This document shows positions 50,613-55,942 of a stretch of 64,000 bases of DNA, piece after piece. The DNA comes from Paracholeplasma morum (GTDB taxonomy: Bacteria > Bacillota_I > Bacilli_A > Acholeplasmatales > UBA5453), in the NCBI RefSeq assembly GCF_016907055.1, contig NZ_JAFBBG010000007.1, forward strand, positions 1 through 64,000, written 5' to 3'. Both the position numbers and the translations under genes were made by a program. The notes beneath the pieces are model-generated. The model did no database searches, had not been told where the DNA came from, and was given only the letters and a program-made list of their open reading frames with translations. Position 1 is the first letter of the stretch; the number at the start of each line of letters is the position of its first letter.

Positions 50613-51860
50613 TTATTTATTCTCCTTTTTGAGTAATTCCTTTTTTTGCTTAATCCAGATTAGACGTTCTTTAAGTGCTTTTTCATAAGTAGATTCTTCT
50701 TTAGGATTGTAATAAGTATCATTGATATTTGACTCTGGCAAGTAGGTCTGATCCACAAGTGCTTTCGGATAGTTGTGCGGAAACTTATATAATGCCGGAT
50801 TGGCCTTTATTTCACGGTTTAGAATGTGAGAAGGTATTGGGCCAACCTTACCCGTTTGATACGTTTCTAAGGCTAAATCAATGGCAGATATTGCAGTGTT
50901 TGACTTTGGAGATATTGCCATGTCGATGACTGCAACGGATAACGGAATTCTGGCTTCTGGAAAGCCCACTTTTAAAGCAGCATCGCAGGCAGCAACCACT
51001 TTTGGACCGATATTAGGGTTAGCTAACCCGATATCTTCATAAGCGATTACAAGCATTCTTCGTACGATTGAACCTAAATCTTCTAATGTTATTAAACGTG
51101 CCAAATAGTGAAGTGAGGCATCTACATCTGAGCCTCTAATAGATTTTTGAAAGGCAGAGAGGATATCAAAATAATTATCTTGTTGATCATCTAGTTTCAA
51201 TATAGGCTTACCAATAGCTTGTTTACAGATTTCTTTGGTAATGATTTCATCGGTCTCAATAAGCATAGTTGCTTCAAGCATATTTAGCGCCGTTCTAACT
51301 TCGCCACCCGCGGATTGTGCAATATACTCCAAAGCACCTTTAGTGTATCGATAATCTGTGTCCACATAATCCGATTTTAAAGCCAGCTCCAGTACTTTAA
51401 CAATGTCACTTTCAGTAATATCATTCAAACGATAGATATGACATCTTGAACGTATCGCGGGATTAACGGACATGTAAGGATTTTGTGTGGTTAAGCCAAT
51501 AATCGTTACTTTGCCTTCTTCAACGAACGGCAATAAATAGTCTTGTATATCGGTTTTCATTCTATGAATTTCATCGATGATAACCAAAATATCGTGATAA
51601 GCAGTAGTAGCAATGATTTCCTTTAGTCTAGCTTTAGAATCCGTAGCTGCAGAGAAATTAAAGGATTCCATTCCAGCTTTTTTGGCAACCAGTTGAGCAA
51701 TTGTGGTTTTCCCGGTTCCTGGATTACCATAAAGAATAAACGAGATGATTTTATTCTGCTTAATCATGGATGTAATGATGCCTTTTTCTCCAATAAGATG
51801 ATCTTGTCCGACTACTTGGTCAAACTCGGTTGGTCTTAATCTGTGAGCGAGTGGTTTCAT
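50613..51860 (-). CDS. rarA: Replication-associated recombination protein RarA (MgsA)
   Basis: A 415-residue AAA+ ATPase that acts at stalled forks. RPTEFDQVVGQDHLIG, Walker A YGNPGTGKTT, Walker B LVIIDEIHRM, sensor LIGLTTQNPY and the Arg finger in IRSRCHIYRL are all present. The C-terminal tetramerisation domain contains ALHYLARLI and ANPNIGPKVVAACDA. An extended -10 (TGT-TATAAT, complement of 51890-51895) lies upstream on the minus strand. It forms a two-gene unit with ppiB. Confidence 0.95.
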   Translation of the reverse strand: MKPLAHRLRPTEFDQVVGQDHLIGEKGIITSMIKQNKIISFILYGNPGTGKTTIAQLVAKKAGMESFNFSAATDSKARLKEIIATTAYHDILVIIDEIHRMKTDIQDYLLPFVEEGKVTIIGLTTQNPYMSVNPAIRSRCHIYRLNDITESDIVKVLELALKSDYVDTDYRYTKGALEYIAQSAGGEVRTALNMLEATMLIETDEIITKEICKQAIGKPILKLDDQQDNYFDILSAFQKSIRGSDVDASLHYLARLITLEDLGSIVRRMLVIAYEDIGLANPNIGPKVVAACDAALKVGFPEARIPLSVAVIDMAISPKSNTAISAIDLALETYQTGKVGPIPSHILNREIKANPALYKFPHNYPKALVDQTYLPESNINDTYYNPKEESTYEKALKERLIWIKQKKELLKKENK

Positions 51861-51906
51861 AGGTTAACCTCATTTCTTAATCATTTATGATTATAACATA
51901 TATTAC

Positions 51907-51936
51907 TTGCATAATGTGGCTATTAACCGTTAAAAT
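51907..51936 (+). promoter_or_regulatory. Promoter of the NadC-like gene
   Basis: TTGCAT (51907-51912), 18 bases, TAAAAT (51931-51936), followed by GAAGGAGG before the ATG. It is divergent from rarA. Confidence 0.6.
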
Positions 51937-51958
51937 AAGAGTATGAAGGAGGCTTACT

Positions 51959-52738
51959 ATGAATCCAGTAACCTATTTTGAAAATATTATCAAAGATTTA
52001 AACAGCAAGCCCTATCATGTATTAGAGAAAAGTCCTGCTGTTTTTTATTTAATCGCTAAAGAAGAAGGCATTGTCTCTGGTATCAATGAAGTTGAGATGT
52101 TTTTGAATTTATACGATATTGAATTATCTTTTAGAAAACATAAAGAAAGCGGCCAAGTTATGAAACGTGGCGATATTGTTTGTTCGATATCAGGGCCAAA
52201 ATCAAGTTTGTATCATGCTCTTGATACTGTGTCATTTATTTTAGGAAAAATGTCTGGCATCGCTAGCATTGCTTCATTTTACCGAAAAAAACTAACGCAT
52301 TCATCATTGATTAATATGGGCGAATCCAGAGCCGTTGAGTCTATTTTTTACAAAGAAGCGCTAAAAGATGGTGGGGCAGTAGAATTACCTTTTACGCTTG
52401 TTGATGAGACAATAATTGATTTATATGGCAGTTACGAAGATGCAATTGCTAAAACACGAATTAGTTTTAACAATCCAATAGCACTTGAAGTGAATGATAT
52501 ATCAAAATTTTACGATGCACAAAAGACAGATGCTGATATTCTTGTTCTGAAGTATTTTAATGATGAAGCGATTAGAAGAGCGATTATTGATAATAAGGGC
52601 CAGAAGAGACTTATGGTCGGAGGGTTGATTTTACCGAACAGATTGGATATTATTGGGTCTTATCAATTTGATTATTTAACAACAAGTTTGATTTACACTG
52701 CAGCAAGAATCTATGAATTCGCTGTAAAAGTTGGATAA
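51959..52738 (+). CDS. Divergent quinolinate phosphoribosyltransferase (NadC)-like protein
   Basis: A 259-residue protein of the QPRTase fold. The N-terminal region KRGDIVCSISGPKSSLYHALDTVSFILGKMSGIASIASFY follows the NadC plan, in which a glycine-bounded loop precedes a helix ending in SGIAT. The C-terminal barrel follows the pattern (ALEVNDISKFYDAQ, TDADILVLKYF, RLMVGGLILPNRLDIIG). NadC catalytic marks are changed: the TRKT loop reads GESR, the HR pair is EL, KDNH is missing, and LDN reads LKY. It is thus probably not a normal NadC. The ModD-like subgroup is another relative. The substrate cannot be inferred. Confidence 0.65.
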   Translation: MNPVTYFENIIKDLNSKPYHVLEKSPAVFYLIAKEEGIVSGINEVEMFLNLYDIELSFRKHKESGQVMKRGDIVCSISGPKSSLYHALDTVSFILGKMSGIASIASFYRKKLTHSSLINMGESRAVESIFYKEALKDGGAVELPFTLVDETIIDLYGSYEDAIAKTRISFNNPIALEVNDISKFYDAQKTDADILVLKYFNDEAIRRAIIDNKGQKRLMVGGLILPNRLDIIGSYQFDYLTTSLIYTAARIYEFAVKVG

Positions 52739-52796
52739 TTACTAGTAAAAATTGCGTTTTTATAGTACAATTATACTGTTATACGGAGGTTTATTT

Positions 52797-53309
52797 ATGA
52801 ACTTAAAAGATTACATTGCATCAATTGAAGATTTTCCACAAAAAGGCATCTTATTTAGAGATATTACACCACTTATGTTAAATGGTGAAGCTTATAAACT
52901 AGCTTGCGATCAAATGGTCGAATTTGCTAAGAAACAAGGCGCTACTTTAATAGTAGGGCCAGAAGCAAGAGGGTTTATCTTTGGCTGTCCTGTAGCCTAT
53001 GCACTAGGTGTTGGATTTGCACCAGTAAGAAAACCTGGTAAACTTCCAAGAGAAACAGTCACAGTCAAGTATGACTTAGAATATGGTTCGAACGAACTAT
53101 CTTTACACGCTGATTCAATCAAACCTGGCGATAAAGTTTTAATCGTTGATGATTTACTTGCAACAGGTGGTACCGTAGATGCAACCATTCAATTGGTTGA
53201 ACGACTAGGTGGCACAGTAGTTGGGTTATCATTCTTTATTGAATTAGAAGCCCTTGAAGGCAGAACTAAACTTAGAAACTACCCTATTTTCGCATCTTTA
53301 AAATACTAA
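52797..53309 (+). CDS. apt: Adenine phosphoribosyltransferase
   Basis: A 170-residue APRT that salvages adenine to AMP with PRPP. The PRPP-binding motif [13 protein letters not shown] is near residue 118-130; [26 protein letters not shown] and [11 protein letters not shown] are family marks. CGGAGG fixes ATG 52797 rather than the upstream ATG 52752. It lies 12 bases before the RSH gene. Purine salvage joins here with alarmone metabolism, since both depend on nucleotide pools. Confidence 0.96.
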
Positions 53310-53321
53310 AGGAGGATTAAT

Positions 53322-55505
53322 TTGGAATCCTTAATGACGTTCGATAAGTTGATCACTAATGTGAAAACTTACATTAAAAAAGAATCAGATCTCGAACGAA
53401 TCAAGGCGGCATATGAAATGGCGTCTTTTAAACATGGTTCACAACTTCGAAAAAGCGGTGCGCCATACATTTCTCATCCTTTGGCTGTTGCCTATATATT
53501 AAGTGAACTTAATGCTGGACCAAATACACTGATTGCAGCAATTCTTCATGATGTGCTTGAAGACACTCAAACCACCTATGAAGATTTAAAGACTAATTTT
53601 GGCGATGAAGTTGCACAAATGGTCGATGGTGTTACGAAGATTGGTAAGATCTCTTTTAATCAAGAAGTATCACAAGCTGATAATCATCAGAAGATGCTGA
53701 TTGCGATGTCGAAAGACATTCGAGTGGTATTGATTAAAATAGCTGACCGTTTGCATAATATGCGTACAATACATTATCAATCAAGTGATAAACAACTAAA
53801 AATTGCTTCAGAAACGTTAGATATATATGCGCCTCTAGCGCATAGACTCGGTCTATTCCAAATTAAAGCAGAACTCGAAGACACCTCTTTAAAGATTGTC
53901 AATGCGCCATTTTATCACCGAATAAAAAACATGATCGATAATCAAAAACAAGTGAAAAACTTGTCTATCGAACATATGATTGATACCATAAAAAAACATC
54001 TATCTGAAAACCATATGTCAAATTATTTGATATCTGGAAGAACTAAAAATATCTATTCAATTTTTAAGAAAATGACACGCCAAAATAAAGAATTTGAAGA
54101 TATTTATGATATTTTGGCCATTAGAGTCATTGTTGATAGAATCGAGGATTGTTATCAAGTTTTAGGCATCATTCATGCCCATTTTATCCCGATTCCAAAA
54201 CGATTTAAGGATTATATAGCTGTACCTAAACCAAACATGTATCAATCCTTACATACGACGATTTTATCGGATGATGGTTCCGTATATGAAATCCAAATTA
54301 GAACCCATGAAATGGACCGTATTGCTGAATACGGTATTGCCGCTCACTGGGCATACAAAGAAAATAAAGAATACTCTAAAGAGAAAGAGCAATTTGAAAT
54401 TGCTCAAAAACTTAAATGGTATGCTGAATTCTTGAAGATGACTGAAGACGATGACGATAAGAAAGAAGGCGCAGACGAGTTTGTCGAAACGGTTAAGTCT
54501 GATATTCTTGAAGCAAACGTCTACGTATTCACTCCAAAAGGACAGGTTGTTGAGTTAACCAAAGGTTGTACACCTATTGATTTTGCATACCGAATTCACT
54601 CTGATGTTGGAAATTCGATGATTGGCGCGACGGTTAATAGTAGGATTGTACCACTGGATTATGAATTAGAGACAGGCGATATTGTCGCCATCCGAACATC
54701 CAAAAATACTGGTGGGCCTTCTGAAGACTGGTTAAAACTTGCTAAAAGTTCACATGCGAAACATAAAATTAAAGGATACCTCAATAAGCAAAATCGTGAC
54801 AGCATATTCCAAATGGGAAAAGACATGATTGAACGTGAGGCACAAGGCAATAAAGTAGACTTAGGATCCATGAATGATGAGTTTGCAAAGAAACATTTTT
54901 CAAAAAACATGATTAATTCTATAGAGGATCTTTATGTTGAAGTCGGTAAAGGCATTGTTAGTCCTAAAACCGTGGTTGCAAAACTTCTTGGCAAAGAAGT
55001 CGATAAAGAAACGCTGTTACAAAGACAGTTAGAAAAAGCAAAACGCATACTGACAACCACCCACGAAACAGGATTGATTGTCGAAGGGTTAACGACACCA
55101 CAAATTAAGATTGCAAACTGTTGTTTACCAATCCCTGGAGATTCGATTGTTGGTTATGTAACAAAAGGCTCTGGCATAGCGGTTCACCATGAAAATTGTC
55201 CTAATGTCACCAATTTGACGGAAATGCGATTCGTGGATGTATATTGGGCAACTAACCTCACTAGAAAGTACCCTACTCGTATCCAAATCGTGGGACAAAA
55301 CCGAAATAATATTCTATCCGATATCATTTCAACGGTTAACGCGACGTCGATTACAATTGCTGAGATTAATGCAGTTTCAAATCAAAAACTTGAAAGCATC
55401 ATTACGCTTAAAGTATTGGCAAGCAACAAAAGTGAAATTGAGAATTTAATGGTCAACCTGCTAAAGATTCAAAGTATCTATAATATTGAAAGAAGATTTA
55501 AATAA
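53322..55505 (+). CDS. relA: Bifunctional (p)ppGpp synthase/hydrolase (RSH)
   Basis: A 727-residue long RSH. The N-terminal HD domain (HGSQLRKSGAPYISHP and AAILHDVLEDT) hydrolyses alarmones; the synthetase domain has RFKDYIAVPKPNMYQSLHTTI; TGS starts at VYVFTPKGQVVEL, and the C-terminal ACT domain closes the protein. Both catalytic halves are intact. TTG 53322 is the likely start: GGAGG lies 7 bases before it, but 18 bases before the next candidate, ATG 53334. It follows apt and overlaps dtd by one base. Confidence 0.95.
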   Translation: MESLMTFDKLITNVKTYIKKESDLERIKAAYEMASFKHGSQLRKSGAPYISHPLAVAYILSELNAGPNTLIAAILHDVLEDTQTTYEDLKTNFGDEVAQMVDGVTKIGKISFNQEVSQADNHQKMLIAMSKDIRVVLIKIADRLHNMRTIHYQSSDKQLKIASETLDIYAPLAHRLGLFQIKAELEDTSLKIVNAPFYHRIKNMIDNQKQVKNLSIEHMIDTIKKHLSENHMSNYLISGRTKNIYSIFKKMTRQNKEFEDIYDILAIRVIVDRIEDCYQVLGIIHAHFIPIPKRFKDYIAVPKPNMYQSLHTTILSDDGSVYEIQIRTHEMDRIAEYGIAAHWAYKENKEYSKEKEQFEIAQKLKWYAEFLKMTEDDDDKKEGADEFVETVKSDILEANVYVFTPKGQVVELTKGCTPIDFAYRIHSDVGNSMIGATVNSRIVPLDYELETGDIVAIRTSKNTGGPSEDWLKLAKSSHAKHKIKGYLNKQNRDSIFQMGKDMIEREAQGNKVDLGSMNDEFAKKHFSKNMINSIEDLYVEVGKGIVSPKTVVAKLLGKEVDKETLLQRQLEKAKRILTTTHETGLIVEGLTTPQIKIANCCLPIPGDSIVGYVTKGSGIAVHHENCPNVTNLTEMRFVDVYWATNLTRKYPTRIQIVGQNRNNILSDIISTVNATSITIAEINAVSNQKLESIITLKVLASNKSEIENLMVNLLKIQSIYNIERRFK

Positions 55506-55942
55506 TGAGAGCAGTCATTCAAAGAGTATCTGAAGCGAGTGTTTCAACTTCAGATTATCATCAGTCCATCGAAAAAGGGTATTTAGTTTTACTTGGCGTT
55601 CATGTAGATGATACAGATGATGATTATCAGTACACGCTTAAAAAAATCATCAACTTAAGGGTTTTTGAAGATGATAATCAAAAGATGAACCTTTCAATCA
55701 AGCAAGTTAATGGAGAAATATTGTTAATCTCACAGTTTACGTTGCTCGGTAATGTAAAAGGTAACAATAGACCTTCATTTACGACAAGTGCTAAATCTGA
55801 GTTTGCAAACCAGTATTATGAAAGACTCTATCACGATCTTAACCTAGAAGTACCAACCAAAAAAGGTGTATTTGGAGCGGATATGCAAGTTAAACTTGTG
55901 AATTCTGGTCCTGTAACAATCATCATTGACACGAAGGAGTGA
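55505..55942 (+). CDS. dtd: D-aminoacyl-tRNA deacylase
   Basis: A 145-residue DTD that removes D-amino acids from mischarged tRNA. The motifs SQFTLLGN and NSGPVTIIID form the active site at the dimer interface, with GNNRPSFTTSA between them. TAATG couples it to the RSH gene, the same order as in B. subtilis (relA-dtd). The length is normal. The ribosome site of the next gene lies within its 3' end. Confidence 0.96.
   Translation: MRAVIQRVSEASVSTSDYHQSIEKGYLVLLGVHVDDTDDDYQYTLKKIINLRVFEDDNQKMNLSIKQVNGEILLISQFTLLGNVKGNNRPSFTTSAKSEFANQYYERLYHDLNLEVPTKKGVFGADMQVKLVNSGPVTIIIDTKE

Follow-up and report, generated by a model that had tools for sequence, protein, structure and literature searches.

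The open reading frame at positions 51,959 to 52,738 of the window, i.e. the whole stretch of 64,000 nucleotides analysed here, encodes a member of the quinolinate (nicotinate-nucleotide) phosphoribosyltransferase superfamily (QPRTase, NadC; PF02749 plus PF01729) in which 10 of 12 tracked catalytic signature positions are changed. It is probably a NadC descendant that was kept after loss of the pathway and that acts without QPRTase chemistry. To our knowledge, NadC is generally regarded as a single-purpose enzyme; the stripped protein suggests an unrecognised second job. Intact (0-1 signature change), half-stripped and fully stripped NadCs (5-11 changes for the stripped class) form a series at one locus that is split by the presence or absence of NadA. 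With this series, cultured strains allow a second role of NadC to be tested directly. In the literature searched, mostly journals outside subscription, no stripped NadC was found. The frame and its neighbours are the following.

50613..51860, minus strand: rarA/mgsA-type AAA+ ATPase (MgsA_C 5.2e-49), the divergent upstream neighbour
51946..51952, plus strand: Shine-Dalgarno sequence AAGGAGG, read in the sequence, 6 nt 5' of the ATG of the next feature
51959..52738, plus strand: protein of 259 aa with the NadC fold but lacking the catalytic signature of QPRTases, ATG start
52797..53309, plus strand: apt, adenine phosphoribosyltransferase (Pfam Pribosyltran 2.8e-14), ATG at 52797, 58 bp downstream of the stripped nadC
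53322..55505, plus strand: rel-type (p)ppGpp synthetase/hydrolase, part of a conserved apt-rel-dtd block
55505..55942, plus strand: dtd-type D-aminoacyl-tRNA deacylase, part of the same block

The names rel and dtd were assigned from the sequence and are presumptive. The strong ribosome site and the apt neighbour described in the initial annotation are borne out by the AAGGAGG sequence and the Pribosyltran match, respectively. The frame's own promoter, proposed at the same time, was rejected, as the region 51800-53420 holds 3 promoter-like sites versus 7.7 +/- 2.7 in shuffled sequences, a count not above chance.

Fold and catalytic signature

Both Pfam domains of the superfamily match above their cut-offs, QRPTase_N with 37.2 bits (cut-off 27; E 3.5e-9) and QRPTase_C, barely, with 23.5 bits (cut-off 23.1; E 5.2e-5), and the protein is thus a member of this superfamily. 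Against the NCBIfam nadC equivalog (TIGR00078) it scores 84.6 bits, below the curated cut-off of 198.4. The best sequence match in the PDB is the NadC of S. pyogenes (5hup, E 1.5e-13). An AlphaFold model built from a six-row alignment of the protein, three close homologs and two canonical NadCs reached a pLDDT of 89.0 and a pTM of 0.85; with four rows the pLDDT was 54. The two canonical rows push the model towards a NadC-like answer; the Pfam, NCBIfam and PDB sequence matches are independent of them. When the model was compared with the PDB, QPRTases filled the first 48 rows in Foldseek (best E 3.0e-22) and the first 23 rows in VIA (Z at least 22.7), where 1x1o gave Z 28.3 (rmsd 2.6, 259 aligned). 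Beyond the QPRTases, no VIA match listed exceeds Z 19.5, the value for 2i14; nicotinate phosphoribosyltransferases (17.5-18.4) and NAMPT (about 15.5) follow. Sequence matches and predicted model together support a QPRTase fold. The NadC-type fold and the MSGIAS motif (residues 98-103) noted at the outset thus hold, and neither a different fold nor a nicotinate phosphoribosyltransferase emerged: QPRTases lead the structural matches, and the latter enzyme has a gene of its own at another locus, an intact pncB (L132:4682-6154, minus strand, 491 aa) whose product scores 706 bits (cut-off 469).

PncB (TIGR01513) has a related type II phosphoribosyltransferase fold, but it is that separate gene, and the stripped protein matches QPRTases far better. 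TIGR01513 gave no match to it at E values up to 1, and the nicotinate phosphoribosyltransferase identity was rejected, the only match being NF006415 with 14.4 bits against 243. ModD is a NadC paralog outside NAD synthesis, which makes it comparable; however, its model (TIGR01334) matches only residues 22-104 and scores 26 bits where 178.85 are required, and this identity was rejected as well. A basic nucleic-acid-binding protein was also dropped, since the pI of 5.9 and the net charge of -3 are like those of canonical NadC.

The comparison for the signature was made with canonical NadCs of the same order, one tracked column being that which we take to be Arg105. The replacement of the NadC motifs proved to be real. 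The TRKT columns read MGES (LDTRKTT is aligned with INMGESR), NHR falls into an alignment gap in which the loop with His160-Arg161 is deleted, KDNH has become DETI and LDN has become LKY. The only signature positions that remain are E177, equivalent to Glu201, and the phosphate-loop glycine G222. Nine or ten of the signature columns are changed in all nine family members, and all nine keep Glu177. According to published work, QPRTase holds the carboxylate by Arg138, His160, Arg161 and Lys171, the ribose by Glu201 and Asp222, and the phosphate by Lys139, Asn223, Gln274 and glycines 249, 250 and 270 (PMC3633916). When these roles were mapped onto the alignment columns by motif, the pocket set (Arg138, His160, Arg161, Lys171, Lys139, Glu201/Asp222 and the phosphate glycines) was found to be incomplete; the equivalents of Arg138, His160, Arg161, Lys171, Asp222 and Lys139 are gone.

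Overall, the protein resembles NadC in its full-length fold, N-terminal domain, KEEGIVSG, MSGIAS and GG motifs, Glu201-equivalent and ancestral gene place, but differs from it in the signature changes, the deleted NHR loop, the score below cut-off and a genome that lacks NadA. That the protein still works as a quinolinate phosphoribosyltransferase, through an atypical active site, would explain why the fold and both domains are kept, yet this is hardly credible, as the basic carboxylate pocket and the ribose- and phosphate-binding Asp222 and Lys139 equivalents have all disappeared and no NadA is present to make quinolinate.

Conservation among homologs, a check suggested initially, is higher on the pocket side. 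In a comparison of six distinct members of the genus, barrel strands score 0.646 at their pocket ends versus 0.448 at the opposite ends (p 0.005 in a permutation that treats positions as independent). The stretches LKYFND (0.91), VGGLIL (0.74) and EVNDIS (0.67) stand against the old TRKT stretch at 121-130, the lowest at 0.21. A conserved pocket half with new residues suggests a ribose- or phosphate-bearing ligand, and the retained Glu201-equivalent together with the conserved pocket side favours binding. We therefore regard it as a possibility, held tentatively, that stripped NadC still binds a ligand in the old pocket.

The same residues could also belong to a barrel refitted for another base or substrate. 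The protein would then be an enzyme, perhaps again a phosphoribosyltransferase, that has acquired different catalytic residues; candidates are Asp149, Glu150, Glu177, Asp180, Lys198 and Asn201; Glu177 is invariant in the family, the new polar pocket-side residues are fixed in 6-7 of 7 representative members, and the neighbour apt itself encodes a phosphoribosyltransferase. We nevertheless consider this explanation unlikely, because several of the new residues vary in sister genus g4 (Lys198 to Thr, Asp149 to Ser) and the equivalents of Lys139, Asn223, Asp222 and Gly270, phosphate or ribose holders in QPRTase (PMC3633916), are lost.

Distribution and NAD supply

Within the family (f1), 9 of 13 genomes carry the stripped gene: all seven of genus g1, which was taken to be Paracholeplasma and includes Paracholeplasma vituli, itself a carrier, and both of the sister genus g4. 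It is absent from all four genomes of g2 and g3 (G007, G008, G010, G011). A profile of the nine family proteins was searched against 160 genomes of the order, 41 of which had a NadC-like match, and against 395 genomes of the class, 80 of which had one; overall, 106 genomes had a NadC-like match. The family clade scores at least 361 bits and the next match 137. Proteins were recovered from 105 of these genomes (G336, matched at 19 bits, yielded no protein and was excluded) and comprise 85 intact, 18 stripped and 2 cut by contig ends. Besides the nine of the family itself, two further families of the class contain nine stripped NadCs, also near apt: six in f9 (G163, G408, G414, G420, G238, G444) and three in f16 (G170, G181, G203). 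Among 35 viral loci scanned there were two distinct full-length NadCs; stripped relatives were not found in the viral contigs searched.

NadA is present in 79 of the 85 genomes with intact NadC and in both with a NadC cut by contig ends, but in none of the 18 with a stripped one. The six exceptions, intact NadC without NadA, are G271, G294, G353, G362, G397 and G457, several of them fragmentary. The split even runs within genera. In g39, G227 and G406 have intact NadC and NadA whereas G170 and G203 have stripped NadC and no NadA; in g47, G306 and G181 differ in the same way. In the genome of P. morum (G000) we found neither NadA nor a second NadC, there being no further QRPTase_C match. With pncB present and NadA absent, the earlier suggestion that nicotinate salvage takes the place of NadC is supported at the level of gene content.

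In the NadC of G170 (L129:6315-7133), changes affect 5 of the 12 signature positions, and the genome lacks NadA, yet the protein scores 265 bits against the NCBIfam nadC cut-off of 198.4. It would therefore be named as an active enzyme, an example of how automatic NadC names can mislead. This protein keeps the Arg138, His160, Arg161 and Lys171 positions and has lost Glu201, whereas the clade of the P. morum protein shows the reverse. If reversion is excluded, these opposite patterns imply at least two strippings. The case is drawn from the residues kept, not from the tree: with 17 stripped rows (L103, an extreme branch, left out) long branches meet and a single clade is neither shown nor rejected. 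A rapidly built tree with 104 rows places the gene of G170 inside the intact f16 genes.

Two further features of the NadC set were seen. At L020 (G057), as in open frames of about 785 aa in other genomes of f3 genus g6, a single long frame encodes an FAD-binding (NadB-like) protein followed by NadC, and nadA lies close by in these genomes. The NadC matches G457:C130, G247:C27 and G400:C153 contain one in-frame stop (TAG or TAA), which is probably the terminal stop; the recovered frames are of normal length (274-277 aa).

Selection on the stripped gene

All nine family homologs are in frame, without frameshift or stop, and of near-constant length. Nei-Gojobori counts gave 10 synonymous versus 1 nonsynonymous differences for the G001/G006 pair (dN/dS 0.025) and 51 versus 17 for G009/G012 (0.072). 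For the same two pairs, the values were 0 and 0.041 for apt, 0.017 and 0.023 for rel, and 0.030 and 0.056 for dtd. Wider family pairs are near saturation, with 0.09-0.15 where computable. In f9, G238/G414 shows 49 versus 13 differences (0.057), pairs with G420 give about 0.12 and G408/G444 gives 0.37; in f16, values are 0.16 for G170/G306 and 0.40 for G181/G306, a stripped-intact comparison. Purifying selection on stripped nadC is thus evident in f1 and in some of the f9 pairs; in the remaining cases the constraint is weaker or hard to judge.

A functionless relic in slow decay, its frame still open because little time has passed since pathway loss, would be in keeping with the low identity of stripped NadC within the genus (42-62%, beside 81-88% for apt), with the four family genomes that lack the gene, and with the f16 cases, which are single genomes under weaker constraint. 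Neutral decay would, however, give dN/dS values of about 1 and broken frames, and the two close family pairs and the f9 pair lie far below 1. A neutral relic was rejected for f1 and for some of the f9 pairs; as a general explanation we hold it to be improbable. Some observations count against a kept NadC descendant: the fast stripped pairs (0.37, 0.40) are what weaker constraint would give, and G007, G008, G010 and G011 live without the gene.

The apt locus and a possible second role

All nine family carriers share the order rarA (minus strand), stripped nadC, apt, rel, dtd, with a same-strand gap of 51-60 bp between nadC and apt. The rarA gene keeps its place whether or not a family genome carries stripped nadC, and it adjoins apt directly in G007, G010 and G011; in G008 the contig starts too near apt to tell. 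Beyond the family, apt was located in 79 genomes, 78 of them paired with nadC. Taking 12 kb as the limit of linkage, nadC is linked to apt in 25 of 68 intact, 9 of 9 stripped and the single contig-cut case, and in 18 of 18 stripped cases once the nine family genomes are added. Linkage was thus assessed in these 78 and nine genomes of the 105, the other 18 being members of the order.

In f9, G214 and G279 have the order SPFH protein, zinc-ribbon protein, nadA, nadB, intact nadC, further genes, apt, rel, dtd (nadA and nadB were identified directly in L206 and by position in L207). G163, G420, G238 and G414 show this order without nadA and nadB, and with nadC stripped but in place, while in G408 and G444 the stripped nadC directly adjoins apt. 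G397 has nadB, intact nadC, apt, rel and dtd. In f16, the order Fic-like gene, nadC, argS, recJ, apt, rel is common to intact and stripped genomes; the names argS, recJ and rel, like dtd elsewhere, are presumptive, and nadC of G227 was placed by profile match. Since the same gene orders occur with intact nadC, the link to apt is older than the catalytic loss. The apt neighbour is therefore weak evidence of a functional tie, and cooperation with Apt is not proven by an ancestral linkage.

This bears on the idea that stripped NadC was retained for Apt, as a non-catalytic subunit that would tune it in the manner of pseudoenzyme partners elsewhere in phosphoribosyl metabolism. Such pseudoenzymes reportedly include PRPP synthetase relatives and an inactive APRT isoform of T. 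brucei (PMC13252144, PMC8836349). They offer an analogy only, in that a genome retains an inactive homolog of a phosphoribosyl enzyme; they belong to other families and reportedly coexist with an active paralog, whereas P. morum has no active NadC. The close same-strand spacing in the nine family genomes and the adjacency in G408 and G444 would suit such a subunit. On the other hand, apt exists in family genomes without stripped nadC, two or three genes separate the two in other lineages, and in G397 adjacency predates the catalytic loss, so that we give a dedicated Apt subunit little credence.

We favour a NadC descendant kept after pathway loss, for which the following course may be envisaged. 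The ancestor would have been a true nadC near apt-rel-dtd. nadA and nadB would then have been lost, NAD being supplied from nicotinate via PncB and quinolinate no longer made. QPRTase chemistry could decay, with loss of base-facing and most phosphate-facing residues, while purifying selection retained the protein. The half of the former pocket that faced ribose and phosphate might still bind a ligand, and the protein might act as a sensor or assist another protein without catalysis of its own; Apt or purine/PRPP metabolism would be a guess at its client. More broadly, it is conceivable, and we put it forward with reserve, that in these lineages of Bacilli NadC also performs a non-catalytic job, one predating the loss of quinolinate chemistry, and that after nadA/nadB loss selection for this job alone keeps the protein, so that stripped NadCs arise repeatedly at one locus.

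Other genes accompany nadC at these loci. In f9, two zinc-ribbon proteins, one of them of the SPFH/Band 7 type, are encoded ahead of nadA-nadB-nadC (L206) and are retained before stripped nadC (L123:7807-9943, G163). In f16 and f24, the gene directly before nadC encodes about 356 aa and matches Fic/DOC weakly (24.7 bits versus 24), at L129:5236-6303 and in the same place in L202, L203, L204, L208 and L209.
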